A DNA stretch of 20,172 nucleotides. Source: a virus. Under the pieces are notes generated by a model. The model made no database searches and had not been told where the DNA came from. It saw only the letters and a program-made list of their open reading frames with translations. The stretch lies in the IMG/VR virus record IMGVR_UViG_3300000153_000011, positions 1 to 20,172 of that record; one strand, 5' to 3'. Shown in pieces: positions 4,594-19,068 of the stretch; the first letter of the stretch is position 1, and every line of letters begins with the position of its first letter. A program made the translations under genes and the position numbers.

Positions 4594-5811
4594 ATGTTTA
4601 GTTTTAAGGGATTTATTACAAAAGATAGGAATACTCATTTAGAACACCTAGAAGATGCTATCATAGATAAAGGTTCTGCAGGTGGGCAAAGTGCTATTAA
4701 TTTTTTAAAGTCAGTAAGAAATATGCTGGCTGGTTCATCAAGTAATAAAGTCAACATGACCGTCAAGTGGGACGGCGCTCCAGCAATCATTTGTGGTACT
4801 AATCCTGAAAACGGAAAATTCTTTGTAGGTACTAAATCAGTTTTCAACAAAAATCCAAAAGTCAATTACACAGTAGGTGATATAAGAAAAAATCACTCTG
4901 GTGAGTTAGCAGAAAAACTAACAGTTGCATTAAGAGAATTAAGGCGTCTAGGTATCAATGGGGTACTTCAAGGTGACTTTCTATTCACTCCTTCAGATTT
5001 AAAAAAAATTAATATAGATGGTGAGAGTATGGTTTCATTTACACCAAATACTATTACTTACGCAGTACCAACTAGTTCAATGCTTGCTAAAAAAATATTA
5101 AGAGCAAGAATGGGTATAGTTTTTCATACAAAATATACAGGTAAAACTTTAGATAGTATGACAGCTGGTTTTGGAACTATTAGAGGATCAGCAACAAATG
5201 TATTTTTAGCAAGTGCTGGTTACAAAGATGTATCAGGTTCTGTAAAACTAACAAGAAGTGAACTTACACAATTTAATGCGAAGTTAAGAATGGCAGAAGG
5301 ATCTTTATTAAAAGCTTCAAAAGTAATAGATGAAATGAGTATAACTTCTTCAGAAGGTCTTGGTGTTGGATATAGATTAAAAACTTTCTTTAATCACTAC
5401 ATTAGAAACACACAAGGACACATGGCCAAGATAAAAAGTTTAGTAGATATGTTTAGAGATTACTATGTAAATATTTTACAAGCAGAAATAGATAGTAAAA
5501 AGTCACCTGCAGGTAAACAAAAATATAAAGACATATTAGAAAAGAATTTAACATTTATAGATAGAAATAAGAATGGATTATACTTTGCCATTGCTTCACA
5601 CGTAACTTTACAAAATGCTAAAAACTTTTTAGTAAATAAAATGAGTGAGATACAAAGTATAGGTCACTTTTTAAAAACTTCAACAGGATATAAAGTAACA
5701 GCTCCCGAAGGATTTGTAGCTGTTGATAAAGTTGCCGGCGCTGTTAAATTAGTAGATAGATTAGAGTTTAGTAGAGCTAACTTTACAATGCCAAAAGGGT
5801 GGAGTAATTAA
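4594..5811 (+). CDS. Putative KxDG nucleotidyltransferase/ligase-like protein
   Basis: 405 residues. The strongest signal is VKWDGAPAI with Lys58-Trp-Asp-Gly61, the KxDG motif I of ATP-dependent DNA/RNA ligases and capping enzymes, where the lysine takes AMP or GMP. It is followed by KFFVGTKSVF and later VLQGDFLF (Gly127-Asp128), which could stand for ligase motif III (usually DGE). Motifs IV and V are not obvious. I believe similar proteins are widespread in marine T4-like phages as a conserved family of unknown function (DUF6267-like), but cannot verify this here. The C-terminal half (from about residue 230) is helical. The start at 4594 has only a weak purine-rich site (AAAGAGAA). The next gene, a P-loop kinase, follows after 3 bases, which fits a nucleic-acid end-processing pair. 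Ligase activity is an inference. Confidence 0.75.
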   Translation: MFSFKGFITKDRNTHLEHLEDAIIDKGSAGGQSAINFLKSVRNMLAGSSSNKVNMTVKWDGAPAIICGTNPENGKFFVGTKSVFNKNPKVNYTVGDIRKNHSGELAEKLTVALRELRRLGINGVLQGDFLFTPSDLKKINIDGESMVSFTPNTITYAVPTSSMLAKKILRARMGIVFHTKYTGKTLDSMTAGFGTIRGSATNVFLASAGYKDVSGSVKLTRSELTQFNAKLRMAEGSLLKASKVIDEMSITSSEGLGVGYRLKTFFNHYIRNTQGHMAKIKSLVDMFRDYYVNILQAEIDSKKSPAGKQKYKDILEKNLTFIDRNKNGLYFAIASHVTLQNAKNFLVNKMSEIQSIGHFLKTSTGYKVTAPEGFVAVDKVAGAVKLVDRLEFSRANFTMPKGWSN

Positions 5812-5814
5812 AAG

Positions 5815-6564
5815 ATGATGAATGATAAAGATGTACAAGAACATCACAAAATGTTAAAAAAATTAACTAATACAAAATCTTTAACAGAATTTAGAGAATA
5901 TTTGAAAGAGGGTATTTACGATCCTGGTATATTTAAAGCATTCTTTTTAGCTGGTGGTCCAGGTTCAGGTAAATCATTTGTTACACAATCAGCCTTTGCT
6001 GGTACGGGATTAAAAGTAGTTAATTCAGATAGTGCTTTTGAAACAGGATTAAAGAAAACTAATCTATCTCTTAAAATGCCAGATGAAGAAGAATACTTTA
6101 GAAATATTATAAGACAAAAGGCAAAGACAACTACTGCCACTATGTTAGATACCTATGTTAATGGTAGACTTGGTTTAATTATTGATGCAACTGGTAGAGA
6201 TTTACCGCTTGTTACTAGACAAGTATCTATGTTAAAAGCTATAGGTTATGATTGTTATATGATATTTGTAAATACAAGTTTAGATGTAGCGATACAAAGA
6301 AATATTAATAGACCTAGAACAATTCCTGAATACCTTGTAAAAAATAATTGGGAAAAAGTACAATTAAATATAGGTACCTTTCAAAGAATTTTTAGTCCAA
6401 AAAGAATGATGATCCTTGACAATAATAGAAGCGAGAAAGAGTTAGTATCAGTAACACTAAATAGTGCGTCAAGGTTTATACGAAGTCAATTAAATAAAAA
6501 ACCAGAAAATTACATTGCGTTAAGTTGGATAAAGAAAGAACTAGATGCAAAAAGAAATATATGA
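5815..6564 (+). CDS. P-loop kinase (polynucleotide/zeta-toxin-type fold)
   Basis: 249 residues with a Walker A GGPGSGKS at residues 47-54 preceded by FFLA, then VVNSDS and a LIIDATGRD strand typical of the P-loop kinases that include polynucleotide kinase and zeta toxins, and an RNINRPRTIPE lid-like segment with arginines. It probably phosphorylates a nucleic-acid 5' end, nucleotide or small molecule with ATP; the substrate cannot be told. Residues 22-33 (SLTEFREYLKEG) resemble the capsid-targeting peptide seen at the N-terminus of several neighbours. It follows the KxDG protein by 3 bases. Two start ATGs (5815, 5818) are adjacent, and GGTGGAG about 10 bases upstream is the likely ribosome site. 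A kinase role is well supported, the substrate is not. Confidence 0.85.
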   Translation: MMNDKDVQEHHKMLKKLTNTKSLTEFREYLKEGIYDPGIFKAFFLAGGPGSGKSFVTQSAFAGTGLKVVNSDSAFETGLKKTNLSLKMPDEEEYFRNIIRQKAKTTTATMLDTYVNGRLGLIIDATGRDLPLVTRQVSMLKAIGYDCYMIFVNTSLDVAIQRNINRPRTIPEYLVKNNWEKVQLNIGTFQRIFSPKRMMILDNNRSEKELVSVTLNSASRFIRSQLNKKPENYIALSWIKKELDAKRNI

Positions 6565-6578
6565 GTAAAGGAGATGAA

Positions 6579-7031
6579 ATGAAAGTATCAAGTGAAACAG
6601 CGATAAGTATGCCAATGAAAAATTTGCTAGCTATAGTAGCAACTGTTGCTGTAGGAGTATGGGCTTACTTTGGTGTGATCGAAAGATTAAATCGTATCGA
6701 AACAAATGAAGAACTGATTAGAAAAGATTTAACTCAAGCAAGTGAGAGAATTGAAGCTGATTTAGAAAAGAATACAGAATTTAGAATCAAATGGCCAAGG
6801 GGAGAAATGGGATCTCCACCTGCTGATTCCGAACAGTATATGCTTATTGAACATATGTCCGGACAAATGGATAAAATTACCATTCGTTTAGAAAAAATGA
6901 TGAACAACGGAGTAAACATCATAAGATTACAAGAAGATGTTAAGGCCATGAGAGATGATATTGAGAAGTTGAAAGACAGTAATCGTAGTATAATTTATGA
7001 AAATGGTAACACTCATAAAAAAAAGGAATAA
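6579..7031 (+). CDS. Membrane-anchored coiled-coil protein, function unknown
   Basis: 150 residues from the ATG at 6579, which has AAAGGAG (6567-6573) five bases upstream. The frame is open further upstream and has another ATG at 6561 that overlaps the kinase stop, but without as good a site. One membrane helix near the N-terminus (about residues 10-30, NLLAIVATVAVGVWAYFGVI) is followed by a long heptad-like, charged region and a second coiled-coil stretch near the C-terminus (RLQEDVKAMRDDIEKL). The topology is N-in single-pass with a long soluble part. It resembles phage membrane proteins of spanin or tape-measure-accessory shape, but no family is recognised and a lysis role is not shown. 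Confidence 0.75.
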   Translation: MKVSSETAISMPMKNLLAIVATVAVGVWAYFGVIERLNRIETNEELIRKDLTQASERIEADLEKNTEFRIKWPRGEMGSPPADSEQYMLIEHMSGQMDKITIRLEKMMNNGVNIIRLQEDVKAMRDDIEKLKDSNRSIIYENGNTHKKKE

Positions 7032-7032
7032 A

Positions 7033-7359
7033 ATGAAGAAAATAATAACAACACTTTTTATATTATTGTTTGTGAATATTGCTATTGCTTTAGAATACAA
7101 GCCGGGTAAGGCGCATCCAAATAAAGAGGGCGTTGTTGGTCTATTGTTAATACTAAACGGTACAATAATTGAACACGTTTTTAAACCAAACATATCAACT
7201 TGTCTTAAATCTAAAAGAGTAGCACAAAGACAAATGGATTCAAATGGTAAAAGCGAGAGAGTACAATTTGCTTGTAAGATATTAGTAGCAGATTTAGAAG
7301 AAGATTCACAGACAAAATATGGATTAAGAATAACTAAAATAATATCAGGAGGAAACTAA
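7033..7359 (+). CDS. Small exported two-cysteine protein (paralogue 1)
   Basis: 108 residues from the ATG at 7033, with AAAAGGA just upstream; an ATG at 6997 in the same frame lies inside the preceding gene and lacks a site. The N-terminus is a clear Sec signal peptide (MKKIITTLFILLFVNIAIA, likely cut after residue 19). The mature part has Cys57 in a TCLKSKR motif and Cys81 in a QFAC motif, spaced 24 residues apart, probably a disulfide in the periplasm. The same pattern occurs in the next gene, so the two are paralogues. Function is unknown. Export of phage proteins to the periplasm suggests envelope modification, lysis timing or superinfection exclusion. Confidence 0.8.
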   Translation: MKKIITTLFILLFVNIAIALEYKPGKAHPNKEGVVGLLLILNGTIIEHVFKPNISTCLKSKRVAQRQMDSNGKSERVQFACKILVADLEEDSQTKYGLRITKIISGGN

Positions 7360-7787
7360 TGAACAAGTTAGAAAAGTATATAATTATATGTATGTTTTTT
7401 ACCATACTTTTTGTAGGTTTAAACGTAAAAGCAGAAACACAAGAAGCACTAGATGTTGCTGAGAAGAAAGGCCTTATAGATTTAACTCCATCTGAACCAG
7501 AAATAGGCATTGTATTTGCAGTTTGTATATTTGAAAATGAAGATGGTACAAGGAAATTAGTAGATCATAGAGAAGCTATTAATATGAGTCACTGCTTGAA
7601 AGAGAAAAGAAAAGCGGAAAAGAAATATAAACAAATGAAGATAGACGGACTAACCGTTGGTTCATTTATATTTGCTTGTGATAAAGTAAAAGCAGAGATA
7701 GAGGTATTAGAGAATGGTGATTGGCGTATTGTAAAGATATTAGATAAATATCACGAAGCATATAAAAAGAAGAAGATTTACGAGTAA
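7359..7787 (+). CDS. Small exported two-cysteine protein (paralogue 2)
   Basis: 142 residues, beginning at a TAATG junction with its paralogue and preceded by a full AGGAGG at 7347-7352. An N-terminal hydrophobic segment (about residues 7-24) with a VKA site near residue 25 looks like a signal peptide. The mature part repeats the pattern of the upstream protein: Cys79 in HCLKEKR, Cys107 in FIFAC (28 apart), then a short C-terminal strand (WRIVKIL against RITKI in paralogue 1). An additional Cys56 is unique to this copy, and the C-terminus is Lys-rich. The pair arose by tandem duplication and has diverged strongly. Function is not known. Confidence 0.8.
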   Translation: MNKLEKYIIICMFFTILFVGLNVKAETQEALDVAEKKGLIDLTPSEPEIGIVFAVCIFENEDGTRKLVDHREAINMSHCLKEKRKAEKKYKQMKIDGLTVGSFIFACDKVKAEIEVLENGDWRIVKILDKYHEAYKKKKIYE

Positions 7788-7790
7788 TAT

Positions 7791-10181
7791 ATGAAATTTA
7801 AAGATTACGTATTAGAAAGTATTATCGATATACCAAGACTTACTTATGCACCTGGTGTATTTGATAATGCTAATACGTCTAATCCAAAAATTAAAGCTAG
7901 TGTTAAGAAATTAATTAACAATCAGATTAAAGAATTTGAACAAGACTATCCTATATTGAAAATATCTTTAATTGGTTCTATTCTAACAAAGAGATATAGA
8001 AATGACGCAGACTTGGACATCAATGTATTGTTTGATGTACCAAAAGAAAAACAAGAAGATGAAAGAGTAGCACTTTCACAAAAGTATTTGTCTTCTAAAA
8101 ATCCCGACAATATTCAAGGTAAAGAAATTCCAGGAACTAAACACCCTATTAATTTTTACTTTATTACAGATCAGGAAACATATGACGATCAAAATAAAAA
8201 AGCTGATGCTGTGTTTGATATAGAAAAAGATAAGTTTGTTAAACGACCAGATGATTTTGTTTTTAATACAGACTTATATGTAAAAGAGTTTGGAAGAAAA
8301 GTACAAGAATTAGACGTAGTTAAAGGTGAACTAAAAAGAGATATAATTGACTATGATGAATTAAAAGAATTACAACCAAATGATGTTTTAGATTTACAAG
8401 ATAAACTAAACGATAAGATAGAAGAAATAGAAGATAACCTTAACGACATTATTAAGATTGGTGATACTGTTGACGCTGAAAGAAGATCAGCATTTGATAG
8501 TGATATGTCACCAGATGAGATTAGAAAGTATGGTATCAAAAATAAATTACCTAAAAATGTTATCTATAAGATGTTAGAAAAATATCACTATCTAAAATTT
8601 TATAAGAAATGTAAACAAATTTTAGATGATGGTAAAGTAACAGACGCTGAAATAGATAGTTTAAAAACTGAATCAATTGCTAGTGCTTGGAATACTCTTA
8701 TTAGAAAAACAATTAAAGCTCCAAGAATGAGAGCAGGTATTAACTTATATTTAAAATATATCAGACAAGGTATGAAAGACGCTAAAAACAAAGCGGCTCA
8801 ACATGCTGGTATAGATTATAATGAATTTAGTCTAGCAGTTAAAGACGTAGGATTACCAGAGGACTATGTAACAGAAGTCAGATCAGGTAAATTAACTCCA
8901 AATAGATCAGGTAAAACAATGGCGTTCACATTTGGTCGTTTTAATCCACCAACAATTGGACACGAAAAGTTAATCAAAAAGGTTGCTAGTCAATCAGCAA
9001 ATGATTACAGAATATTTTTAAGCAGATCACAAGATAGTAAAAAGAATCCTTTAGATCCAAATACTAAATTGAGATTTATGAAAGATATATTTAAACAATA
9101 TAGTAACAAGATAGAATTAAATTCTACCAACATGGTTTTAGATTTAGCAACTATGATCTATAAAAAAGATTATGAAAATATTATCATGGTAGTTGGTAGT
9201 GATAGAGTAAATGAATTTTCAACGATACTTAAAAAGTATAATGGTACCAAAAGCAGACATGGTTATTATTTTTTTGGTGATATAAACGTAGTATCAGCTG
9301 GCGAAAGAGATCCTGACGCTGAAGGAGCAATGGGTATGTCAGCAAGTAAAATGAGAAAAGCTGCAGCAGCTGGAGATTTTAAATTATTTAAAAAAGGATT
9401 GCCACCAACATATAGAAGTATACCTAATATTGAAAGATTGATGAAGTCAGTTAGACACGGTATGAACTTGGCTCTGGAATCAAGAGGACCTGTAGCAAGT
9501 ATGGCAGAATTTGAACAACAACAAATTAGAGATTTATATGTTAGAGAAGTAATCTTTAACATAGGAGATAAAGTAAATTACACAAAAGAAGATTTACAAG
9601 GAATAGTAAAAAGAAGAGGAACAAATTATATTGTTTTAGAAGACAATAGTAATAGTTTACATAAGGCTTGGATATGGGATTGTATTCCAATATCATCTGA
9701 CAAAGAAGCCGCTGTAAGAGAATACAATTTAGATGTAGATTACGGGTTTAAAGCTGTATCTAGTATCGAAGAAGTAACAATTAAAGTGACACCTACACAG
9801 GATAAAGTCATAAGTAAAAAGACTAAACGATTTAGCGAATTTAAGAAAGATTTAAATATGAATAAAGATAAAAAAGAATCTTATGAAATTGGACACGATT
9901 ATGCCAAACATACGATCTCATTAACTCCAGGGCAAGATGGATACGATCCAAACTACAAAGGTGGCGAATATGTCCCTAGTAAACCTGAAGATAACAAGAA
10001 ACAAGTAGTTACAAGACCTATGACGACTGATATAGGTAAAAAAGATATTGAAAAATGGGCAATGTCGGATGCTACAATTGATAAATATAGAGATAGATAT
10101 AGAGAAGAATGGCGTTCTAAACTAGACGAAGTAGTAACTAGAATGTTATCAAAATTAGAGATAAACAAGGTAGATATTTAA
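7791..10181 (+). CDS. Large fusion: pol-beta-type nucleotidyltransferase plus NMNAT-like adenylyl/cytidylyltransferase
   Basis: 796 residues. An N-terminal domain carries IGS (61-63) followed by DADLD (72-76), the GS...DxD signature of the pol-beta nucleotidyltransferase superfamily (poly(A) polymerase, CCA-adding, aminoglycoside and antitoxin-type enzymes). A charged helical linker (about 180-340) follows. A second catalytic domain starts at 377, with FGRFNPPTIGH (381-391), the HxGH-type nucleotide-binding motif of NMNAT/cytidylyltransferases, and SASKMR (517-522), equivalent to their ISSTxxR motif. A C-terminal SH3-like segment (KVNYTKEDLQGIVKRRGTN, about 592-610) and a disordered tail complete it. 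The first residues MKFKDYVLES resemble a T4 capsid-targeting peptide with a cleavage-like VLE. Possible roles are NAD or nucleotide-cofactor synthesis, or modification of RNA or protein in the infected cell. Domain calls are good; substrates are unknown. Confidence 0.85.
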   Translation: MKFKDYVLESIIDIPRLTYAPGVFDNANTSNPKIKASVKKLINNQIKEFEQDYPILKISLIGSILTKRYRNDADLDINVLFDVPKEKQEDERVALSQKYLSSKNPDNIQGKEIPGTKHPINFYFITDQETYDDQNKKADAVFDIEKDKFVKRPDDFVFNTDLYVKEFGRKVQELDVVKGELKRDIIDYDELKELQPNDVLDLQDKLNDKIEEIEDNLNDIIKIGDTVDAERRSAFDSDMSPDEIRKYGIKNKLPKNVIYKMLEKYHYLKFYKKCKQILDDGKVTDAEIDSLKTESIASAWNTLIRKTIKAPRMRAGINLYLKYIRQGMKDAKNKAAQHAGIDYNEFSLAVKDVGLPEDYVTEVRSGKLTPNRSGKTMAFTFGRFNPPTIGHEKLIKKVASQSANDYRIFLSRSQDSKKNPLDPNTKLRFMKDIFKQYSNKIELNSTNMVLDLATMIYKKDYENIIMVVGSDRVNEFSTILKKYNGTKSRHGYYFFGDINVVSAGERDPDAEGAMGMSASKMRKAAAAGDFKLFKKGLPPTYRSIPNIERLMKSVRHGMNLALESRGPVASMAEFEQQQIRDLYVREVIFNIGDKVNYTKEDLQGIVKRRGTNYIVLEDNSNSLHKAWIWDCIPISSDKEAAVREYNLDVDYGFKAVSSIEEVTIKVTPTQDKVISKKTKRFSEFKKDLNMNKDKKESYEIGHDYAKHTISLTPGQDGYDPNYKGGEYVPSKPEDNKKQVVTRPMTTDIGKKDIEKWAMSDATIDKYRDRYREEWRSKLDEVVTRMLSKLEINKVDI

Positions 10182-10489
10182 TGAGTAAAACACTAAAAGA
10201 ATTTAGAACACAGTTACATGAAGCAACAGCTTCAAAAACTAATTTACAATACATTAGAGCTAAAACTGCTAAAAACGATCATTTTGAAACTAGAAGATAT
10301 ATCGCTGCTGAAATTTTAAGAGATAAAAAATTAGCAGATACTTACTCGGCATTAGAAGTAGTACATGACAACTATGCTTCTGTCGTGGGTAATGACGCTA
10401 TTGCATTAAGACAAAAACTTGAAAGAGAGTTACAAAAACAATTAAAACAAAAAATTTCCAATTGGGACGAAGTATGGAGTGACCTATAA
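10181..10489 (+). CDS. Small helical protein with capsid-targeting-like N-terminus, function unknown
   Basis: 102 residues, starting at a TAATG junction with the fusion enzyme and ending at another TAATG. The N-terminus MSKTLKEFRTQLHEA resembles a head-targeting leader ending in LHE|A, a site of the LxE type cut by T4-like prohead protease. The rest is predicted largely helical and charged, with no signal peptide or membrane segment. I do not recognise the family. Position within the Lys/Glu-rich block suggests a structural or internal-head role, which is inference only. Confidence 0.75.
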   Translation: MSKTLKEFRTQLHEATASKTNLQYIRAKTAKNDHFETRRYIAAEILRDKKLADTYSALEVVHDNYASVVGNDAIALRQKLERELQKQLKQKISNWDEVWSDL

Positions 10490-12153
10490 TGAGTAGATAT
10501 AGAAAAACAATGAATGAGGCTTTAAATGAAGTCAATAATAGACATAATATAGAAGAAAATATTTCTGTTAAAAAATATAAAAATGCTGTAACTCCAGACA
10601 AAGATGGATTACAAATTTCAAAAAGTGGTGGTATGTCAGGTTCAATTTTTATTAAAAACAAAAAAGAATTAAAAGACTTATTAGATAAACTTAATAAAAA
10701 CTCATCTAATTTAAAAGAAGAAATTGTTTTACAAGAAGTTGATTTAAAAGAATTTGAAGAAGTTGAGTTAAATGAATTTACTGTAGATCAAATTAGTAAG
10801 TTAGCAAAATCGTATGCTGATCTTGCTGGTAAAACAATGTCAATGGCCAATGTAAATAAATTAAGAAAAATATTCGATAAAATACCTGACAGTTCTTTAA
10901 ATGATTTAAGAAAGAAAAAAATACCTTTTATATCAGGTCTTGCGTTATCACGTATGATACAAAAGAAGATGCCAGTTACTGAAGATATGTCCCAAGGATT
11001 TGTTGTAAAATTTACATCTAAAAAAGATGGTAAAATTGGTTCGGCTTGGTATAAAGATGAAAAAGATGCGAAAGAGTTTTTATCAAAATTAAAATCAGAC
11101 GGCGGTAATGGTGTTATATCTAAAAATGATGGAAAGTATTTTGATGAAACTACAGACGAAGTAATGATAGGTGAAAATAATACTCAGAAGTACACGTGGA
11201 AAGATATTAATATTGCGCTTACAAACTCTGGTATGAGCCCACAACAAATTTTAAAAGTTATCTCGGCACTCAAAGGTAAACATATTAAAGAAGAAACACT
11301 TGTAGAATTTACCGATAAACAAATCACAATGGCAAAAGGTATTGCTTTTGATAAGAGATATAAAGGTGGTAACATGACTAAAGCAACTGAGATGATTAAT
11401 AAGATTGCTAAAGGATTAGCAGACAACCCTGAAGTTGCAAATGCGTTACGACAAGCAAATGAAGAAGTGGAAGTTGAAGAAGGTAAAATGTCGGATATTC
11501 ACAATATGATGAAAGATGGTAAGTCAGCAACAGAAATAGCAAAAGCATTAAAACTTAATCCTAAAACTCTTAAAGATATTTTAGGCGAAGTACAAGAAGC
11601 AAATGATGTTCCAGCGACTGATAAAAAAGAACCTACTGAAGAAGGTGAATCTGTAGAAAAACAATTGATGGCTGCTTTAGCTCAAGTAGCATTATTAAAA
11701 CAAAAATTAGAAAATGAAAAGAACAAAGCAGTTAAACCAAAACCAAATCCAATAACTGGAGAAGTTCCATTAACTGTTGGTATTGCTCACGCAGAGTTTA
11801 AAAAAGAAAAAGAAAAAGAAGTTAAAGAAACTTACATTGTAAAATATGTAGACCCTTTAAACAAAAAGAATTTACGTATGAAACACCCTAATGAAAAAGA
11901 CGCACAAGATATGAAGGATAGATTGAAAAAAAGTGGTGTTAAAGAGATTGAAATAGTAAAAGAAGCTATGAGTGATAAAGAAAACAGAGTACAAAGAGCA
12001 AAAGATATGATTAAGTATTATGATGCTCAAAAGAAAGCCGCTCTGAAAGGTAAGAATAAAGATTTAGCAAAAAAGATGTTAAAAAATGAAATGACTGGTG
12101 CAGCTAACTTGGTAGATAAAATACTATCGAAAAAATTAAAAGGAGAGAAGTAA
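10489..12153 (+). CDS. Large Lys/Glu-rich modular protein, possible internal head protein
   Basis: 554 residues, highly charged, no signal peptide. It is built from repeated modules. An EFTxxQI module starts at residues 97 and 274, each just after an LxE-type sequence (LNE, LVE). A VKF/VKY...KDA module starts at 171 and 449. Between them, at about 334-366, is a helix-turn-helix-like segment (MSDIHNMMKDGKSATEIAKA, then LKLNPKTLKDILGE). Coiled-coil and Pro/Lys-rich linkers fill the rest. Several IxE/LxE sites suggest processing by a prohead protease into fragments, as with T4 internal proteins. The basic, DNA-binding-like composition fits a protein packaged with DNA. It could instead be a scaffold or an unrelated structural protein. 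GGAG lies 11 bases upstream of the start, which overlaps the previous stop. Confidence 0.75.
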   Translation: MSRYRKTMNEALNEVNNRHNIEENISVKKYKNAVTPDKDGLQISKSGGMSGSIFIKNKKELKDLLDKLNKNSSNLKEEIVLQEVDLKEFEEVELNEFTVDQISKLAKSYADLAGKTMSMANVNKLRKIFDKIPDSSLNDLRKKKIPFISGLALSRMIQKKMPVTEDMSQGFVVKFTSKKDGKIGSAWYKDEKDAKEFLSKLKSDGGNGVISKNDGKYFDETTDEVMIGENNTQKYTWKDINIALTNSGMSPQQILKVISALKGKHIKEETLVEFTDKQITMAKGIAFDKRYKGGNMTKATEMINKIAKGLADNPEVANALRQANEEVEVEEGKMSDIHNMMKDGKSATEIAKALKLNPKTLKDILGEVQEANDVPATDKKEPTEEGESVEKQLMAALAQVALLKQKLENEKNKAVKPKPNPITGEVPLTVGIAHAEFKKEKEKEVKETYIVKYVDPLNKKNLRMKHPNEKDAQDMKDRLKKSGVKEIEIVKEAMSDKENRVQRAKDMIKYYDAQKKAALKGKNKDLAKKMLKNEMTGAANLVDKILSKKLKGEK

Positions 12154-12716
12154 TGAATTATTTAAAACACAAACCAGGTAGTATTGAAGAAATATCAGCA
12201 AAAATGTCAAATTATGCTACTGAATCAGAATATAAAAAAGTATTCAAAAAAGAATTAGAAAAGTCGGGTAAAGGAATTGGTGCTATGACACCTGCTGAAA
12301 AAAAGAATTTCTTTAATGACATAGACAGCAAGTACACAGCAAAAAATGAAGAAGATGCTTACGAGAATGATAGATATATTATCAAAAATGGTAAAGCAAC
12401 TTTAGACAATTCAAATACACCTGATAAAAAAAATCATGTATATGCTGATGGTCATAAAGACGCTGAAAAGAAAGCAAAAGAAAAAGGCATTAAAGAAGAA
12501 GCAGTTAAACAAGAATCTATGTTAGATGCTGTTAAATCTGTATGGCAAATGGCTGCTGAAGAAGAAGAAAAAAAAGGTACAGCTGAAGGCGAACCTGAAT
12601 TTAAAAATCCTAAAAACATTAAAGGTTCAAAAAATAATACATTCAAGGGAAAAGCTGACACAGGTACAAAGAAAACACAAGTGCAACTAGAACCAGAAGT
12701 CGATTACAAAAATTAA
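12153..12716 (+). CDS. Lys/Glu-rich hydrophilic protein, function unknown
   Basis: 187 residues, preceded by AGGAGAG and joined to the previous gene by a TAATG overlap. The N-terminal ~65 residues (containing EYKKVFKKELEKSGK, then MTPAEKKNFFNDIDSKY) look like a small helical domain of a type I associate with marine T4-like phage structural proteins. From about residue 85 it becomes low-complexity, rich in Lys, Glu, Asp and Asn, probably disordered. Composition matches the preceding 554-residue protein, suggesting a related role, perhaps in the head interior. No catalytic motif is visible. Confidence 0.7.
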   Translation: MNYLKHKPGSIEEISAKMSNYATESEYKKVFKKELEKSGKGIGAMTPAEKKNFFNDIDSKYTAKNEEDAYENDRYIIKNGKATLDNSNTPDKKNHVYADGHKDAEKKAKEKGIKEEAVKQESMLDAVKSVWQMAAEEEEKKGTAEGEPEFKNPKNIKGSKNNTFKGKADTGTKKTQVQLEPEVDYKN

Positions 12717-12734
12717 TCTAAAAATCTTCACATT

Positions 12735-13229
12735 ATGAAAAATCTACCAAGAATATATTGTGATATGGATGGTGTACTTTGTGACTTTACAACACAAGTA
12801 GAGAAAGCCGCTGGAACGTCTAAAGCTAAATGGATGGCTAAAGGTGGAAGCGAAAAATGGCTTAAAGTATTAGAATATCCTAAGTTTTGGGAAAATATGC
12901 CTTGGATATCACAAGGTAAAGTCATGTGGAACTTCATCAGTAAGTATAAACCACACATACTATCAGCATATTTAGAAAAGACATTTGATCCTAATTGTAT
13001 ACCAGGTAAGTCTGCTTGGTGTAGAAAGAATTTAGGGTTATCTGGAGGTAGAGTTAATCTAGTAAGAAGATCAGATAAAAAAAATTATGCTAAAGTAGGG
13101 GGTCAACCTGCGATACTAATAGACGATTACGATAAAAACACATCACAATTTACACAAAAAGGCGGTATAGGGATTACATTTAAATCTGCTAGTCAAGTCA
13201 TCGCTGAGTTAAAAAAACTGGGCTTCTAA
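12735..13229 (+). CDS. HAD-superfamily phosphatase, 5'(3')-deoxyribonucleotidase-like
   Basis: 164 residues. Motif I is CDMDGVLCD with Asp10 and Asp12 (nucleophile and acid/base), motif II is the ILSA strand (about residues 74-77), a lysine-containing SDKKNYAK segment can serve as motif III, and motif IV is LIDDYDKN with Asp130-Asp131. Length and the DMDGVLxDF signature match small 5'(3')-deoxyribonucleotidase-type HADs, which remove phosphate from nucleotides or nucleic-acid ends. No Shine-Dalgarno is obvious before the ATG (12717-12734 is AT-rich), unlike its neighbours. It is the last gene before the late-promoter region at 13240, in the same cluster as a kinase and a KxDG protein. Confidence 0.85.
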   Translation: MKNLPRIYCDMDGVLCDFTTQVEKAAGTSKAKWMAKGGSEKWLKVLEYPKFWENMPWISQGKVMWNFISKYKPHILSAYLEKTFDPNCIPGKSAWCRKNLGLSGGRVNLVRRSDKKNYAKVGGQPAILIDDYDKNTSQFTQKGGIGITFKSASQVIAELKKLGF

Positions 13230-13239
13230 TATCTATTCT

Positions 13240-13247
13240 TATAAATA
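13240..13247 (+). promoter_or_regulatory. T4-type late promoter box TATAAATA
   Basis: An exact TATAAATA in the 68-base gap before a virion-type gene, with expected start near 13253 and a 45-base leader that ends in AAGGAGAT. It overlaps a 7-bp inverted repeat (CTAATAT 13226-13232 / ATATTAG 13245-13251). A palindrome TTAAACGTTTAA lies at 13272-13283 in the leader. Confidence 0.65.
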
Positions 13248-13297
13248 TTAGGGTTATATAACAAAAACAAATTAAACGTTTAAATTAAGGAGATTTT

Positions 13298-13870
13298 ATG
13301 AGTTTATGGGGAAATGACATTAAACCTAAAAATCTAACTACTGCAGAAGCCAAAGAAGTTTTTGCGACACCACAAGGGTGGGTTAGAGAAGCAGGTTCAA
13401 TACTTTCTGGTAATGGCAATACGAGTGCTGATCCAGAAGTATTAGTAGCAATCGGAGGATTGAACGTGAATATGGGTACGGCAAATATTACAGAAATTGA
13501 ATGGATTACTACAACAGCAGATGTATCAGCAGGATACCTTATGTCTGTTAGAGTAAGATTTAATGAAGCAGTAGATATTACTAGTACACCGTATGTTGCG
13601 GTACAAAATAATAACGCAGGTTCTGGTTCAGGACGTGGACCTTACAACTTGCAATACGCAAGTGGTACAGGAACAAATGAAATTGTATTTACTTCAACAA
13701 TAGCTGCAGCTTCAGCAGCAACAGCCGCAGATGATGTACTTAGCATTGGCGCTAACGCAATGAATCTTGACGGTGGTACAGTTAAAGATGCAGGTACAAC
13801 AACAGCATCAGCTATTACTAATGCAGTAGGCATTGGTACAGCGGCTGGTACAGTTACAGTAGTAGCATAA
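13298..13870 (+). CDS. Virion structural protein, Ig-like domain
   Basis: 190 residues. The N-terminus MSLWGNDIKPKNLTTAEAKE followed by VFATPQGWV is a head segment I associate with decoration/structural proteins of marine T4-like phages. Residues from about 60 on form a beta-sandwich-like region: ITEIEWITTTADV, VRFNEAVDITSTPYV, an NLQYASGTGTNEIVF strand pair, DDVLSIGANAMNLDGGTVKD, all typical of bacterial Ig-like (SwmB-type) domains. It is rich in Ala, Thr and Gly. It stands behind a late-promoter box, has a good AAGGAGAT site and is followed by a hairpin terminator, so it looks like a single highly expressed late gene. Exact place in the particle (head decoration or fibre) is unknown. Confidence 0.75.
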   Translation: MSLWGNDIKPKNLTTAEAKEVFATPQGWVREAGSILSGNGNTSADPEVLVAIGGLNVNMGTANITEIEWITTTADVSAGYLMSVRVRFNEAVDITSTPYVAVQNNNAGSGSGRGPYNLQYASGTGTNEIVFTSTIAAASAATAADDVLSIGANAMNLDGGTVKDAGTTTASAITNAVGIGTAAGTVTVVA

Positions 13871-13880
13871 TAACAAAATC

Positions 13881-13909
13881 ATATAAGGGCGCTCAAAGTG
13901 CCCTTATAT
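13881..13909 (+). terminator. Strong hairpin, probable transcription terminator
   Basis: A perfect 10-bp inverted repeat ATATAAGGGC (13881-13890) / GCCCTTATAT (13900-13909), which can extend inward by three more pairs around a CAA loop. It sits 11 bases after a stop codon. It lacks a clean T-run after the stem, the downstream being TATA-rich, so RNA end protection is an alternative. Confidence 0.65.
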
Positions 13910-13929
13910 ATACTATATGAATAAATTGA

Positions 13930-13946
13930 TCTAGGAATTACCTAGA
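13930..13946 (+). other. Small leader hairpin before 13983 gene
   Basis: TCTAGG / CCTAGA form a 6-bp stem with an AATTA loop, followed by a weaker CCC-GAAAA-GGG stem (about 13954-13964), all in the 5' leader of the next gene and just before its AGGAGA site. They may stabilise mRNA. I see no clear promoter between the terminator and the gene. Confidence 0.35.
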
Positions 13947-13982
13947 GTAGCATTCCCGAAAAGGGTTAACAGGAGAAAAGAA

Positions 13983-14444
13983 ATGGCAGATAAGAAAATA
14001 ACAGCGTTGTCGGATATAGGTAACGCCCTTGCAAGTGCAGACTTGTTTCACGTGGTTGATGATCCAGCAGGAACACCAATCAATAAAAAAATAACAGCAG
14101 AAGATGTATTTAATAATGTACCCTCATGGTTAGGTTTAAAACAAGCTTCTCAAACAATCACAGCAGATGGTACAGCAACTACAGCAGTTGATATACTATC
14201 AGCAATAACAGAAATCAATGCAACTTCAGCAACACACGCTTGTGCTATAGCTGATGGAGCAGATGGTCAAGTAAAGACAATTATCAATACTTCAACATCT
14301 GGAACTTATGCAGTAACTATCACTCCAGCAAATTTAAGAGGTTATACAACAATAACATTAAATGCGCCAGGTGAAACTGTGACTTTATTATTTAAAAATT
14401 CAAACTGGAATGTTATCGCCAATCAAGGCGCTGTTGTTGCATAA
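13983..14444 (+). CDS. Virion structural protein, tail-fibre/decoration type
   Basis: 153 residues, preceded by AGGAGA. The N-terminus (KKITALSDIGNALASADLFH, then VVDDPAGTPINKKIT) is the trimerisation-leader-like segment common at the start of phage fibre and decoration proteins. The C-terminal ~95 residues (QTITADGTATT..., ADGADGQVKTIIN, TYAVTITPANLRG, LLFKNSNWNVIANQG) are a beta-rich module often found at the end of marine phage virion proteins. It follows a terminator hairpin after ~70 bases and so must have its own transcript or depend on read-through. Probably particle-exposed. Confidence 0.75.
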   Translation: MADKKITALSDIGNALASADLFHVVDDPAGTPINKKITAEDVFNNVPSWLGLKQASQTITADGTATTAVDILSAITEINATSATHACAIADGADGQVKTIINTSTSGTYAVTITPANLRGYTTITLNAPGETVTLLFKNSNWNVIANQGAVVA

Positions 14445-14464
14445 TATATAATAGGAGTATATAA

Positions 14465-14704
14465 ATGAGTATTGATACAAATACATTAGTAACTGAAGGA
14501 GAAACATTAAAAAAAGATTTTGATTCTCTATCACAAAAGATTGCGAAAGTTGAAAAAGATTTAGGTACAATGAAAAGCAATTTGAATGCTGTTTTTGGAG
14601 CTATTCAATTAACAGATAAATTAATCGCAGATTCAACTAAATCTGATCCCGTACCAGATGAAGTAACGGCAACAGAAGTAGAAGATGTACAAAACCCGAG
14701 TTAA
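14465..14704 (+). CDS. Small coiled-coil protein
   Basis: 79 residues, preceded by TAGGAG at good spacing. Residues about 10-45 are heptad-like (LKKDFDSLSQKIAKVEKDLG), a short coiled coil, followed by an acidic tail with Pro and Val. No signal peptide or membrane segment. Likely a structural accessory protein given its virion-type neighbour, but the function is unknown. Confidence 0.7.
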   Translation: MSIDTNTLVTEGETLKKDFDSLSQKIAKVEKDLGTMKSNLNAVFGAIQLTDKLIADSTKSDPVPDEVTATEVEDVQNPS

Positions 14705-14706
14705 AA

Positions 14707-14844
14707 ATGAAAACATTTAAAACTTATACGAAAGAACAAGATATAAAAGATTTTGAAGAAGATGTATTAGGTAAAGACACATCATCTGATAAAACTGTAT
14801 CTAAAGAAGAAGAAACAAAAGAGGAAACAAATGAAAACGTTTAA
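14707..14844 (+). CDS. 45-residue peptide with capsid-targeting-like N-terminus
   Basis: A short ORF starting 2 bases after the previous stop, encoding MKTFKTYTKEQDIKDFEEDV and an acidic Glu/Thr-rich tail. The start MKTFKTYTKE strongly resembles both the next protein's start (MKTFKQHIKE) and T4 internal-protein leaders (MKTYQEFIAE). It overlaps the next gene by 14 bases and supplies that gene's ribosome site within its end. The ribosome site for this ORF itself is weak (GAG). It may be a truncated duplicate of the targeting leader or a real small head peptide. Confidence 0.55.
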   Translation: MKTFKTYTKEQDIKDFEEDVLGKDTSSDKTVSKEEETKEETNENV

Positions 14845-15274
14845 ACAACACATAAAAGAATACACAGGGTATACTGGTGATGCACAAGGAGTTGGTACAC
14901 AAGTACAAAACTCTATTGAAGATGGTTCAATAGGTGCTCATAACATACATGATCCTGCAGTATTGGAAAGAGTAAATGCTTTCGTTAGCTCAATTGGCGC
15001 TAGAGAATTTTTAAATCCTCAACAGGCAATAGACGAGTTAAGAGAAAAGTTACAAAGAATCGGGTTAACCGTATCTCCTTGTAACCTACAAGGTGAAAGC
15101 GGAAAAATAACAACTGAAGTGAAACAATTTGGTGGGAGATTTGGTAAAGACACTGATGGTTCTGATATAAATGATGATGGAGTATCTCATAAAAAAGAAG
15201 GTGGAATAAAGATGGAAGTATCTTATGAAGCTTTAAAAAATGGAACATCAAAGGTCTACGCTAAATTAGTGTAG
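14831..15274 (+). CDS. Conserved small phage protein with capsid-targeting-like N-terminus
   Basis: 147 residues with AGAGGAAA before the ATG. It begins MKTFKQHIKEY (IKE|Y would be a prohead-protease-type site), then a Gly/Gln-rich stretch (TGDAQGVGTQVQNSIEDGSI), then helices (VLERVNAFVSSIGAREF, PQQAIDELREKLQRIG) and a C-terminal beta-like part. There is a single Cys (about residue 84). The family has no function I can name. The Gly-rich segment plus helices and the leader suggest a head or neck component. Confidence 0.75.
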   Translation: MKTFKQHIKEYTGYTGDAQGVGTQVQNSIEDGSIGAHNIHDPAVLERVNAFVSSIGAREFLNPQQAIDELREKLQRIGLTVSPCNLQGESGKITTEVKQFGGRFGKDTDGSDINDDGVSHKKEGGIKMEVSYEALKNGTSKVYAKLV

Positions 15275-15277
15275 TTC

Positions 15278-15640
15278 ATGTTTAAAGAGATAACAAAAGA
15301 TAACTGGTTACTTTTTGCTCAACATAATTACGATAATCCGACATTATCTAAAGAGCAAGAATTTTATGAGGATCTTAAAAGATTTAAATATCTTAAAAGA
15401 CTTTTTCGTAAATATCAGATAACTGGTAATATAAAAGTACGATTGGCAGTCAATCATATTATTGTATTACAAAATATTTTTGGCGTGGAAGCTGCTTGTA
15501 CTCTACTATTACATAAAGTAGATAAGATATATTGGTCTCCACTAAAAACAATATTAGTTTATCTTGGTTATCTATATCCACATGAACTTAATGATATTGA
15601 GTTGGATATGAAAATAAAGAAACTTTTAGAGGAAGTATAA
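15278..15640 (+). CDS. Conserved helical phage protein, function unknown
   Basis: 120 residues, 3 bases after the previous stop without its own clear ribosome site, and joined by a TAATG overlap to the next gene. It is rich in aromatic and hydrophobic residues and predicted all-helical (FYEDLKRFKYLKRLFRKYQ, RLAVNHIIVLQNIFGVEA, WSPLKTILVYLGYL). The central HIIVLQNIFG and the later YWSPLKTIL segments are of a type conserved among marine T4-like phages (DUF7207-like, from memory). No catalytic motif. Probably part of a complex with the next gene's product. Confidence 0.75.
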   Translation: MFKEITKDNWLLFAQHNYDNPTLSKEQEFYEDLKRFKYLKRLFRKYQITGNIKVRLAVNHIIVLQNIFGVEAACTLLLHKVDKIYWSPLKTILVYLGYLYPHELNDIELDMKIKKLLEEV

Positions 15641-16119
15641 TGGCGAATAGAGTTGTTGATTTAGTTATAACTTATAGAGTTATCAAATTACTTACCACTC
15701 CTTTTGAAAAACAAGAGGCGTTTAAGTATGGTATAATTGATAAAGATGGAACAGTTTTGAAGAAGTATAGAACTTTAAAATCAACAAAAGAAAAAAAATC
15801 ATACACTATTCTTCATAGATTTGTTTTTAATTTAAAACGAATACTTAAAAAAGTAGGAATGGGTGGAAGACTTGGCTCATTTGCTATTGCTCTAGCACTT
15901 TTATTAAGAGAAAATACTGAGTATAAAGAATACAAAACTTTACTAGAAAGTGCTGTTGTTACATACTTAAAAGAAACTAATCAATATAATACTTTACTTA
16001 ATGAACAAGGTGATGTAGTATCTATTGATGAAGAACCAATAATGACCTGTTTTGGAATTGATATATATGAAAGAGAAGGTCAAATAATATCGGAGGACGA
16101 ATATGCCAAAAAATTATAA
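15640..16119 (+). CDS. Conserved phage protein, function unknown
   Basis: 159 residues, begun at a TAATG junction with GAGGAAG in the upstream gene's end. N-terminal segment (VVDLVITYRVIKLLTTPFEK) followed by FKYGIIDKDGTVLKKYRTLK, a basic helical region around HRFVFNLKRILKKVG, and GGRLGSFAIALALLLRE, which is hydrophobic but probably a buried helix rather than a membrane span. The acidic C-terminus overlaps the next gene by 17 bases. Similar proteins accompany the preceding gene in marine T4-like phages as far as I recall. No function can be assigned. Confidence 0.75.
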   Translation: MANRVVDLVITYRVIKLLTTPFEKQEAFKYGIIDKDGTVLKKYRTLKSTKEKKSYTILHRFVFNLKRILKKVGMGGRLGSFAIALALLLRENTEYKEYKTLLESAVVTYLKETNQYNTLLNEQGDVVSIDEEPIMTCFGIDIYEREGQIISEDEYAKKL

Positions 16120-16453
16120 AGACATGATAGACGAGCTTATCAATAAAATGGGCGAAGATGCTCCAGCTAATTCAGCTGGTGGTGGAGGCGTAGCTGGTAT
16201 TGGAGTAGGGCCAGATGGTGAGCCAGGGGTTAATAAAAAAGATAAAAAAGATCCTTTGTTGTTTGGGAAGTATAAAACTTTTAAAAAAAAATTAAAAGAA
16301 AATTCTGATAATAATAATATAATGTTAACACAAATATTAGATACTATTGATAAAGTTGAAGTAAAAATAGATAATAAAAATGGTATCAAAACGGAAATTG
16401 TTGTTGAAGAAGAAAAACAATACAAATCGTTTAAGGAGAAATATAATGCCTAA
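16103..16453 (+). CDS. Gly-rich/Lys-rich small protein, function unknown
   Basis: 116 residues, with GGAGG (about 16092-16096) before the ATG. The N-terminus MPKNYKDMIDELINKMGED has a weak likeness to the targeting leaders, then a Gly-rich flexible stretch (SAGGGGVAGIGVGPDGEPG), a basic segment, and a C-terminal coiled-coil-like region with an EVVEEE-type acidic end. No membrane or export signal. The last 8 bases overlap the next gene. Probably structural. Confidence 0.65.
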   Translation: MPKNYKDMIDELINKMGEDAPANSAGGGGVAGIGVGPDGEPGVNKKDKKDPLLFGKYKTFKKKLKENSDNNNIMLTQILDTIDKVEVKIDNKNGIKTEIVVEEEKQYKSFKEKYNA

Positions 16454-16736
16454 ATCATTTAAAGAATATATAGGTGTAAGTGGAGCAAGAGTAGGTGGCA
16501 TAAATAATGTACATCCTATTGCTGATTTAGGAGATACTCCACCAAAAGGTAGAAGTAGTAAAGGTATAGGATTAAATGCGAGTACGAGTGCAAACTTTAA
16601 CTCTGCAGAACCAACAACTTTAAAACCAATGGTAACAGGATCTAAAAAGATTCAAGTAGTAAGTAAAGACGAAAAAAAGAAACTTAAAGAAACACCATTA
16701 TACAAATATATGGTAAAAAGAGGATTAATAAAATGA
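16446..16736 (+). CDS. Small basic protein with targeting-like N-terminus, function unknown
   Basis: 96 residues from the ATG at 16446, which has TAAGGAGA upstream; the frame is open further upstream to an ATG at 16380 without such a site, so the shorter form is preferred. It starts MPKSFKEYIGVSGARVGGIN, reminiscent of the SFKEY-type leaders, then a Pro/Gly/Ser-rich region and a basic C-terminal helix (LYKYMVKRGLIK). It overlaps the holin gene by an ATGA junction. Function unknown. Confidence 0.7.
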   Translation: MPKSFKEYIGVSGARVGGINNVHPIADLGDTPPKGRSSKGIGLNASTSANFNSAEPTTLKPMVTGSKKIQVVSKDEKKKLKETPLYKYMVKRGLIK

Positions 16737-17113
16737 TTTGGTTTAGTGCAATTAAGCTAGCGATAAACGCTGGAACACATATTTACAAAAAGAAACAGGA
16801 AACTAAAATGTTAATGGCTGATGGCGCAGCAAGACACGCTCAAAAAATGGCTAGTGGTGAGATAGAATATTCTGGTAAACTATTAGAAGCTAGACAATCA
16901 GACTGGAAGGACGAATTTATTTTGATAATCCTTTCCATGCCTTTAGTATTATTAGGTTGGGCAGTTTTTAGTGATGATCCAACAGCAATGGTTAGAATGA
17001 AGCTTTTCTTTGAATACTTTTCACAATTACCTTTTTGGTATCAAACAATTTTTGTTGGTGTAATTGCAAGTGTTTATGGTTTAAAAGCAACAGATTTAAT
17101 TAAAAGAAAATAA
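16733..17113 (+). CDS. Putative holin, 3TM type
   Basis: 126 residues. An amphipathic N-terminal helix (1-14) is followed by a charged stretch that contains ARHAQKMASGEIEYSGKLLE, then two clear membrane spans: about residues 62-79 (FILIILSMPLVLLGWAVF) and 101-117 (FWYQTIFVGVIASVYGL), and a basic end (KRK). The order QSDWKDEFIL, span, short loop, LPFWYQT, span matches the three-TM phage holin family first described for gene transfer agents (GTA_holin_3TM). A holin permeabilises the inner membrane at the time of lysis. No endolysin or spanin is recognised nearby. It starts by ATGA overlap. Confidence 0.75.
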   Translation: MIWFSAIKLAINAGTHIYKKKQETKMLMADGAARHAQKMASGEIEYSGKLLEARQSDWKDEFILIILSMPLVLLGWAVFSDDPTAMVRMKLFFEYFSQLPFWYQTIFVGVIASVYGLKATDLIKRK

Positions 17114-17539: not shown

Positions 17540-17995
17540 ATGAAAAAATTACTAATAATACTATTATTTACAGCTTATACACAGGTAACTGCGTCAGAAA
17601 TGACATTTAAATTTGGGTCACCATCATTTTCAGGTAATGGTAAGTCATCACACTACCTAACAATTGAAAATATTGAGAAGACTCGTAAAGACGCTATCAA
17701 AGCACAAGCAAAAGCAGACGCTGATAAATTAATATCAGACGCAAAGAACACACCTATTGCTAAATTCAAAGCAAATATAGAGTCCAGATTTTATACTGCT
17801 CTTGCAAAACAAATTACAGACAATGTATTTGGTACAGATGGTCTTCAACAAGACTCAGGTTCATTTACAAATCCAGTTGGCGGCGAAACAGTTGCTTGGA
17901 CAACTCCTTCAGGTACAGGTAATGTAGTAGTTACAGTTACAGAAGCAGACGGAACAACAACTGTATTTACAATGCCTAAAGAGGACAATAGTTAA
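17540..17995 (+). CDS. csgF: Curli assembly protein CsgF homologue
   Basis: 151 residues (E. coli CsgF is 138). A Sec signal peptide (MKKLLIILLFTAYTQVTA, cut after Ala18) releases a mature N-terminus SEMTFKFGSPSFSGNGKSSH. This matches the E. coli CsgF start GTMTFQFRNPNFGGN, the segment that inserts into the CsgG pore and forms a second constriction. A Lys/Ala-rich helix follows (about 48-70), then FYTALAKQITDNVFG, equivalent to the CsgF helical neck, and a beta-like C-terminus (NVVVTVTEADGTTTVFTM) like the TGQTSTIQV end of CsgF. It is the first gene of the cassette and overlaps csgG by a TAATG junction. In bacteria CsgF couples curlin secretion to surface nucleation. Confidence 0.9.
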   Translation: MKKLLIILLFTAYTQVTASEMTFKFGSPSFSGNGKSSHYLTIENIEKTRKDAIKAQAKADADKLISDAKNTPIAKFKANIESRFYTALAKQITDNVFGTDGLQQDSGSFTNPVGGETVAWTTPSGTGNVVVTVTEADGTTTVFTMPKEDNS

Positions 17996-19068
17996 TGTTT
18001 AGATATATAGGAATATTCCTACTATCTTTAATGTTAGTAGGTTGTGCTGGGAAAGCAAAGTTTGATGTAAGAACACAACAAGTTGCTTATAAAGAATTAT
18101 CTACAATCAAAAGTCCAGACGGAGAACCAATTATAATTGCTGTCTATGACTTTTTAGATATGACTGGTCAAAAGAAACCAGGTGGAACTTATGCTTCAAT
18201 GAGTACGGCAGTTACACAAGGGTCGTATCAGTTATTAATTAAAGCACTTGCAGACGCAGGTGATGGTAAATGGTTTAGAGTTGTAGAGAGATCAAGTTTA
18301 CCAAGTTTATTACAAGAACGAAAACTAATTAGGTCTACAAGACAACAAGTAGATGGTGAAAAGGCAGAGTCTTTACCACCACTATTATTTGCTGGTGCAT
18401 ACATCACAGGTGGTGTTGTAGGTTATGATAGTGATATTACTTCAGGTGGTCTTGGTGCTAGAGTTTTAGGTATACAAGCAAACAAATCATTTAGAAAAGA
18501 CATAGTAACTATCATATTAAGATTAGTTAATGTACAAACTGGTGAAGTAGTTATCTCAACTACAATAGAAAAGACTATTATTTCTACATCAACAGGTTCA
18601 GATGTATTCAAATATTTTGATATGGATACAATGTTAGTAGAGATAGAAGCTGGTTATGCAAAAAACGAACCAGTTACATTTGCATTAAGAAAAGCAATTG
18701 AAAAAGGTGTAGTAGAAGTTATTGAACAAGGTGTAAAAAAAGAACTATGGGAGTTTAAAAAAATAGAAGAAGTTAAAGTTCCTGAGATAAAAGATTACAT
18801 TGATGATGGTACAAATGATGTAGAAACTATTGAAGTTGAAACTACTAATAGACATAGTGATATTGTATTTACAGATGATGGTGTTGATATGGGCGAAGAT
18901 AAGGTAGAGAAAACTTACGAAACTTACCTTGAAGAAAAGAAATTAAAGAAAGAATTAGAAGCTGAAACCACAGAAAAAGAGTGGGAAGAAGTAGATAAAC
19001 AAACGGAGGAGAATGCTGATGAAACAGATAATGATAGCGATAGTGATTCTTCTAGCGTGGACAAGTAA
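17995..19068 (+). CDS. csgG: Curli secretion channel lipoprotein CsgG homologue with acidic tail
   Basis: 357 residues against 277 for E. coli CsgG. Lipobox LMLVGC with Cys17, followed by Ala (outer-membrane sorting). Conserved core: YKEL, IIIAVYDFLDMTGQ, STAVTQGS, WFRVVERSSLPSLLQERKLI, SGGLGARVLGI, VTIILRLVNVQTGEV, NEPVTFALRKAIEKGV, ELWEF. CsgG forms a nonameric outer-membrane beta-barrel pore that exports curlin. The constriction loop differs: residues 63-69 (GGTYASM) replace the E. coli YPASNF, lacking exact equivalents of Tyr51, Asn55 and Phe56. Residues 257-357 are an extra, strongly acidic tail (ends SDSDSSSVDK) that would hang in the periplasm. Its last 50 bases contain the ribosome site and start of the next gene. 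AGAGGA precedes the start. Confidence 0.95.
   Translation: MFRYIGIFLLSLMLVGCAGKAKFDVRTQQVAYKELSTIKSPDGEPIIIAVYDFLDMTGQKKPGGTYASMSTAVTQGSYQLLIKALADAGDGKWFRVVERSSLPSLLQERKLIRSTRQQVDGEKAESLPPLLFAGAYITGGVVGYDSDITSGGLGARVLGIQANKSFRKDIVTIILRLVNVQTGEVVISTTIEKTIISTSTGSDVFKYFDMDTMLVEIEAGYAKNEPVTFALRKAIEKGVVEVIEQGVKKELWEFKKIEEVKVPEIKDYIDDGTNDVETIEVETTNRHSDIVFTDDGVDMGEDKVEKTYETYLEEKKLKKELEAETTEKEWEEVDKQTEENADETDNDSDSDSSSVDK

Follow-up and report, generated by a model that had tools for sequence, protein, structure and literature searches.

The window, meaning the whole stretch of DNA analysed here, corresponds to the IMG/VR record IMGVR_UViG_3300000153_000011. It is a whole viral contig of 20,172 bases and represents a fragment of the genome of a marine T4-like (Kyanoviridae-type) phage. 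Genes for methyltransferases, UvsX and the gp41 helicase are followed by a block of small genes (4594–17113), and then by CsgF, CsgG and curlin genes. Judged by the order of its genes, its best cultured relatives are the Methylophilales phages Melnitz, in which the equivalent block lies between the gp41 helicase and the gp61 primase. Several genes of the block, designated below by their start position, encode unrelated proteins carrying at or near their N-terminus a short leader that resembles the capsid-targeting sequence of phage T4 (Table 1). Some 240 related loci were retrieved from metagenomes, and the conservation counts given below refer to the distinct orthologue sites or N-termini of each family.

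Table 1. Leaders and predicted cargo proteins of the small-gene block. A slash marks the known or predicted cut; ORF, open reading frame; aa, amino acids; AF2, AlphaFold 2.
Feature	Coordinates	Strand	Basis
Degenerate leader MFSFKGFITK, aromatics retained, Glu lost	4594..4623	+	Comparison with deeper orthologues
DUF6267 protein with invariant KWDG	4594..5811	+	PF19782, E = 4e-119
P-loop kinase (AAA_33/zeta-toxin/PSTK-like), predicted cargo	5815..6564	+	Pfam, PDB
Kinase leader SLTEFREYLKE/G (residues 22–32), flush with the kinase domain	5878..5910	+	63-site conservation, AF2 model
Leader MKFKDYVLE/S of the nucleotidyltransferase fusion	7791..7817	+	Strict motif, orthologue sites, virion proteomes
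MNT-type nucleotidyltransferase (residues 43–132) with NadR/cytidylyltransferase-like domain (380–476), predicted cargo	7791..10181	+	
Spacing-variant leader MSKTLKEFRTQLHE/A (..TQLHE/A)	10181..10222	+	[LI]xE upstream of the domain, 43/43 distinct orthologues
102-aa protein, predicted cargo	10181..10489	+	No Pfam or PHROG match
Leader MKTFKTYTKE/Q	14707..14736	+	Loose motif
45-aa acidic protein, predicted cargo	14707..14844	+	ORF, four distinct orthologues
Leader MKTFKQHIKE/Y	14831..14860	+	Strict motif
147-aa protein, predicted cargo	14831..15274	+	Melnitz orthologue
Leader-like MPKSFKEYIG without Glu	16446..16475	+	[FL]xE[YF] in 36/36 distinct orthologues, none of which (0/36) has Glu where the cut would lie

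The T4 tag reads MKTYQEFIAE; its residues 4 and 7 are responsible for targeting and residues 8 and 10 for processing, and the protease gp21 cuts after L/I-x-E (PMC9026906). A sequence-only reading of the window had proposed that six strings form a common leader of this type, and that the T4 internal proteins IPI–III use MKTYQEFIAEA. All six strings were found in the sequence and its ORFs, at the positions that had been given for them. The common leader was retained for 7791, 14831, 14707 and the kinase 5815; 10181 has a spacing variant only, and 16446 lacks the Glu. As for T4, MKTYQEFIAE is exact in ipII and ipIII, and ipI reads MKTFKEFT..STITE/A. The leader occupies the very N-terminus of 7791, 14707, 14831 and 10181. 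The kinase string is indeed of the leader type, and it is internal, being preceded by a 21-residue extension. Aromatic residues at the positions equivalent to T4 residues 4 and 7 are present in 7791, 14707, 14831 and the kinase, and are weaker in 10181.

A strict pattern, [FY]xx[FYH][ILVM]xE, was derived beforehand from the published T4 genetics, and a loose one was defined as FxxYxxE. Every N-terminus of the 31 window genes was shuffled with its own composition retained. The strict pattern was present within the first 15 residues of two window genes (0.04 expected in shuffles, P = 0.00075) and within the first 34 residues of three (0.12 expected, P = 0.0003), namely 7791, 14831 and the kinase 5815. 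The loose pattern, the only one matched by 14707, was present in three genes within the first 15 residues (P = 0.0005) and in four within the first 34 (P = 0.00085). In a set of seven T4-like sequences, 21 of 2174 start-proximal Met codons were followed by the pattern, compared with 2 of 4346 internal Met codons (p = 1e-8). A chance origin of the shared leaders is excluded. The likeness might still be a by-product of N-terminal composition (AT-rich ATGAAA starts, Lys and Phe, short amphipathic helices) with no packaging role. Starts are Lys-rich in the window and in Melnitz, where many genes begin with MK. This explanation is nevertheless very improbable, and already disfavoured: composition-preserving shuffles gave P < 0.001, the leader also exists in S-CREM2, with 47.9% G+C (PMC10665884), Glu and L/I are kept despite varying codons, even in the internal leader, and tagged proteins are enriched in virions, as described below.

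Judging from the sequence, the clearest leaders, with the determinants mapped in T4, are those of 7791, 14831, 14707 and, immediately ahead of the kinase domain, 5815. The protein encoded by 7791 matched NTP_transf_2 and CTP_transf_like in Pfam, PHROG 395, 3041 and 455 and, weakly, TIGR01526; PADLOC gave a weak MNT-like match only. Its leader fits the strict motif, with V in place of the L/I assumed two residues ahead of Glu. In the family, Glu stands ahead of S/A-I-I-D-I-P at 75 of 77 sites, and V, F or M frequently replace L/I at the processing site. Like that of 10181, the protein of 14831 matched no Pfam or PHROG family. Among its 58 orthologues, residue 4 is F in 54 (F/Y in 55, L in 3), residue 7 is H, Y or F in all 58, I/V/L/M is retained at position 8, and Glu10 is present in 56; the Melnitz leader is MKNFKNHIAE/E. 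Orthologues of 14707 begin with MKKFKSFIKE or MKRFKTFSKE. Between 14707 and 14860 the adjoining genes start with near-identical codons (ATGAAAAC[AG]TTTAAA), which suggests a local duplication of the leader. A recent gene duplication as the origin of all the leaders was ruled out, since neither the cargo nor the length of the leader is related between the genes; at the DNA level, a local duplication is apparent for 14707 and 14831 only.

In the PDB the kinase matched L-seryl-tRNA(Sec) kinase as well as zeta toxin, and it matched TIGR03574 weakly. The Melnitz kinase leader is MKTFAELQE/G. Its predicted site consists of L (43 sites) or I (20), a free middle residue and Glu (63/63), directly ahead of GxYDP. 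Upstream of this site, the length and sequence of the leader are free among orthologues. An adenylate kinase-like domain is fused ahead of the leader in 23 of the 156 kinase ORFs (L097, L098, L100 and others), and the 21-residue extension in the window (5815–5877) looks like a remnant of such a domain. The Glu and L/I of the kinase, and perhaps those of the nucleotidyltransferase, could belong to the enzyme fold or to a linker cut between domains, and not to a head tag. The motif is flush with the kinase domain, EGxYDP being invariant at the boundary, and it is retained between the two kinase domains in the 23 fused ORFs. We nevertheless find such a role unlikely: leader length and sequence are unconstrained ahead of the site, whose middle residue varies, and an equivalent type of site precedes unrelated domains. 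In the AF2 model, the predicted local distance difference test (pLDDT) is below 50 for residues 13–33, and the first strand begins at residue 41. Residues 13–33 thus lie outside the confident fold, and a cut at E32/G33 would spare the kinase.

The DUF6267 protein (4594) has a further leader-like N-terminus, overlooked by the sequence-only reading. Deeper orthologues possess the canonical leaders MYSFKQYLNE/A and MFSFKQFLTE/E, and Melnitz has MLTLINFSKYITE/D; this comparison indicates that the canonical leader was lost in the clade of the window. A good ribosome-binding site (aaggag) accompanies the 16446 start but not the alternative, longer start at 16380. In both proteins the processing residue is missing, and cleavage is therefore not expected. 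They bring up the possibility that the leader only targets the scaffold core, with processing incidental or absent and the protein carried uncut: 16446 and the DUF6267 proteins of the clade keep the aromatics without Glu, and in T4 an Asp at position 10 abolishes processing and not targeting (PMC9026906). As a general explanation it is quite unlikely. Targeting alone needs no Glu, and Glu is the best-conserved leader residue in the kinase, nucleotidyltransferase and 14831 families. The KWDG of DUF6267, invariant in 25–27 homologues, resembles ligase motif I (KxDG), and PHROG 455 includes DUF6267 and the nucleotidyltransferase joined in one polypeptide. The DUF6267 sequence had no match among solved structures, and a fold search with its model returned nothing significant, NAD+ ligase adenylation domains appearing only at E ~0.7; membership of the DNA/RNA ligase superfamily therefore remains a lead.

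The protease expected from the sequence-only reading was recognised in the relatives. A gp21-family protease (Peptidase_S77, E < 1e-33) is encoded by six of the nine long relatives, including all three above 165 kb, and also by Melnitz. The likely cleavage site of the major capsid protein (MCP) is SFLTE/A in T4, where gp23 is known to be cut at residue 65, AFLSE/A in Melnitz, GLLTE/A in S-CREM2, GILTE/A in S-SZBM1 and SFLAE/A in S-SCSM1, the sites other than that of T4 being read from the sequence. In these phages the leader sites agree with the likely site in their own capsid protein. A profile made of the marine leaders only was applied to all 1580 candidate T4 ATG starts. It ranked 61.1 (MKTFKEFIKE) first and placed ipIII, ipII and gp24, all known gp21 substrates, in the top seven. 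On S-CREM2 a mixed-family profile was weak because spacing variants blur it: the untagged ORF91 came out on top, and the plain T4-derived pattern performed better there.

Nucleotidyltransferases of the 7791 family have been detected in the virions of S-SM1 (PMC3037559), S-CREM2 (PMC10665884), S-SZBM1 (PMC9146016) and S-SCSM1 (PMC9602691). Their leaders are MKKFSAFLNE/A, MKNFSSFLTE/A, MRFRQFIIE/A and MKSFLQFLKE/A, respectively; the S-SCSM1 gene was retrieved as a test of the predicted leader, which was found. The S-PM2 nucleotidyltransferase, as annotated, starts without a leader, and it was not detected in the S-PM2 virion (PMC3037559). In S-CREM2, five of the six ORFs with a leader at residues 3–5 are virion-listed, versus 47 of 212 others (p = 0.003). 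These tagged virion proteins are the S-adenosylmethionine (SAM) lyase ORF6 (S-AdoMet lyase, PF23780, 2e-19), ORF13, the APH-like kinase ORF14, ORF136 and the nucleotidyltransferase ORF154. When three phages were pooled, 7 of 10 tagged proteins were in virions versus 92 of 494 others (p = 0.0007). S-CRM01 has five adjacent leader genes, including a kinase found in its virions according to a report cited in PMC10665884. The leaderless DUF6267 proteins of S-SZBM1 and S-CREM2 are missing from the virion lists, in line with expectation. The sequence-only reading had suggested that the leader-bearing proteins of the window are packaged in the head and injected into the host. For the nucleotidyltransferase, packaging in relatives is supported by the four published proteomes together with the leader sequences; for the kinase, 14831, 14707 and 10181, it is suggested by the conserved leaders.

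The N-terminus of S-CREM2 ORF12 (RFASFMAE/A) resembles that of S-CRM01 g128 (LDSFIKE/A). ORF12 (7704–10313) is annotated as Cas9 and virion-detected, but Pfam, PADLOC and NCBIfam gave no support for a Cas9, and we make no claim of a packaged one. RimK-like ATP-grasp proteins with a leader were also observed, in Melnitz (82–1131, MTQKFSQFITE) and in two metagenomic relatives (G001:148850-150262, MQIPKFKDYITE; G005:27879-29267, MQVPKFKDYLTE); on account of this leader they are predicted to be packaged peptide ligases.

We propose that what these N-termini have in common is a marine form of the T4 capsid-targeting sequence, the cargo being packaged, freed of its leader and delivered to the host, and we regard this as likely. 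In this model, the leader would bind the scaffold core through its aromatics during head assembly, and the protein would be drawn into the prohead; this most likely happens, in view of the T4 genetics and the presence of orthologues in virions. We infer the steps that follow. A gp21-family protease would cut after Glu ([LIV]-x-E, as in the major capsid protein) and free the cargo, here including the two-domain nucleotidyltransferase, the kinase and the small proteins. The freed cargo would remain in the head alongside the DNA until it enters the next host cell. By analogy with T4 IPI–III and the tagged S-CREM2 SAM lyase, the cargo would most likely disable defence or reset host metabolism at the start of infection. 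SAM lyase is a known type of antirestriction enzyme. T4 Ip1–3 are type IV restriction inhibitors (PMC12373910), and both precedents point to a possible antidefence role for the cargo.

Several observations weigh against this proposal. An internal leader, located behind a fused domain in 23 of 156 kinase relatives, fits poorly with a purely N-terminal tag. The contrast with S-PM2 concerns a single phage with a shallower proteome, and the leader proteins 191 and 192 of S-SZBM1 are missing from its 30-protein virion list. Contamination of CsCl-purified virions is possible according to the authors of the S-CREM2 (PMC10665884) and S-SCSM1 (PMC9602691) studies, and the particle data come from other phages, none being this phage or a close relative. 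No protease gene was matched in the window, which is a genome fragment. The looser motif classes were broadened after inspection of the data; counts are smaller for the strict class, to which 3 of 26 non-structural virion proteins belong, compared with 0 of 166 (p = 0.002).

T4 61.1 is an uncharacterised gene of 54 codons, in the interval which holds the marine cargo block. Beyond its targeting leader, 61.1 (18966–19130) copies the post-cut N-terminal arm of gp23 (score 82, versus 55 for the best of 1000 shuffles). The virion-detected S-CREM2 ORF160 (28342–29235) and S-SCSM1 ORF97 (48121–48306) similarly copy the post-cut arm of their own MCP (scores 95 and 83, best shuffles 56 and 51). All three are small proteins of the gp41–gp61 or gp61-side interval. 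In Melnitz, and in a metagenomic protein of the 16103 family to which the window also contributes, the mimicry did not reach significance. It is possible, and we offer it tentatively, that in T4-like phages the gp41–gp61 interval is an ancient cargo island, with products that would enter the prohead through a cleavable tag or through capsid-arm mimicry, 61.1 being a survivor combining both. Under this hypothesis, sequence could be used to predict the effectors that a highly abundant group of ocean phages injects.

No leader was found in the block neighbours 12735, 13298 and 15640, nor in any of their orthologues listed. The leaderless protein 13298–13870 has a Melnitz orthologue annotated "S-layer", and S-SCSM1 ORF95 (MALWGN..), whose start is similar, is virion-detected; some virion proteins of the block would therefore have no tag. 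After the block, CsgF-, CsgG- and curlin-repeat-like genes (17540–20113) are arranged as in Melnitz and the pelagimyophages.

In abundance, T4-like phages rank with the leading phages of the ocean. Several groups have met puzzling enzymes in cyanophage virions (NMNAT-like nucleotidyltransferases, APH-like kinases, SAM lyase), for which contamination was not excludable. A tag with known T4 genetics would provide their packaging mechanism, predicts further injected proteins, and could be a means of reading off the enzymes that a given phage brings into the host cell. The tag itself is already known in T-even phages. In the open-licence literature (most subscription journals being outside this scope), we found no paper in which a capsid-targeting tag is named for cyanophages or for marine phages. 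That literature likewise yielded no mention of the spread to marine T4-like phages and to large enzymes, of the spacing variants or of the fit to published virion lists.

Known systems show varying degrees of likeness. The injected anti-restriction proteins DarA and Hdf of phage P1 are virion-carried antidefence proteins, and they belong to another phage family with another mechanism of head association. In phiKZ and SPN3US, head proteins are cut after x-x-E by a gp21-related protease and many are ejected, but the phiKZ site is S/A-x-E, the propeptides are longer and there is no short aromatic tag (PMC9026906). T4 Alt, a packaged and injected ADP-ribosyltransferase, is a head-carried enzyme with an N-terminus cut by gp21, whereas its propeptide has seven residues (MELITEL) and no aromatic pair. 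The tag of T4 IPI–III is alike in its N-terminal position, the aromatics at 4 and 7, the aliphatic residue at 8, Glu at 10, the small residue often following the cut, the gp21-family protease (here in relatives) and the use of one tag on unrelated cargo. No window protein matched T4 ipI–III or Alt in blastp at E < 1e-3. Unlike in T4, the cargo consists of enzymes and of small proteins unrelated to the IPs, cleavage is a prediction, the leader has 9–14 residues with more variable spacing and an internal position in the kinase, L/I may give way to V, F or T, and H is common at residue 7. Large enzymes would thereby join the small type IV restriction inhibitors in the internal-protein system of T4.

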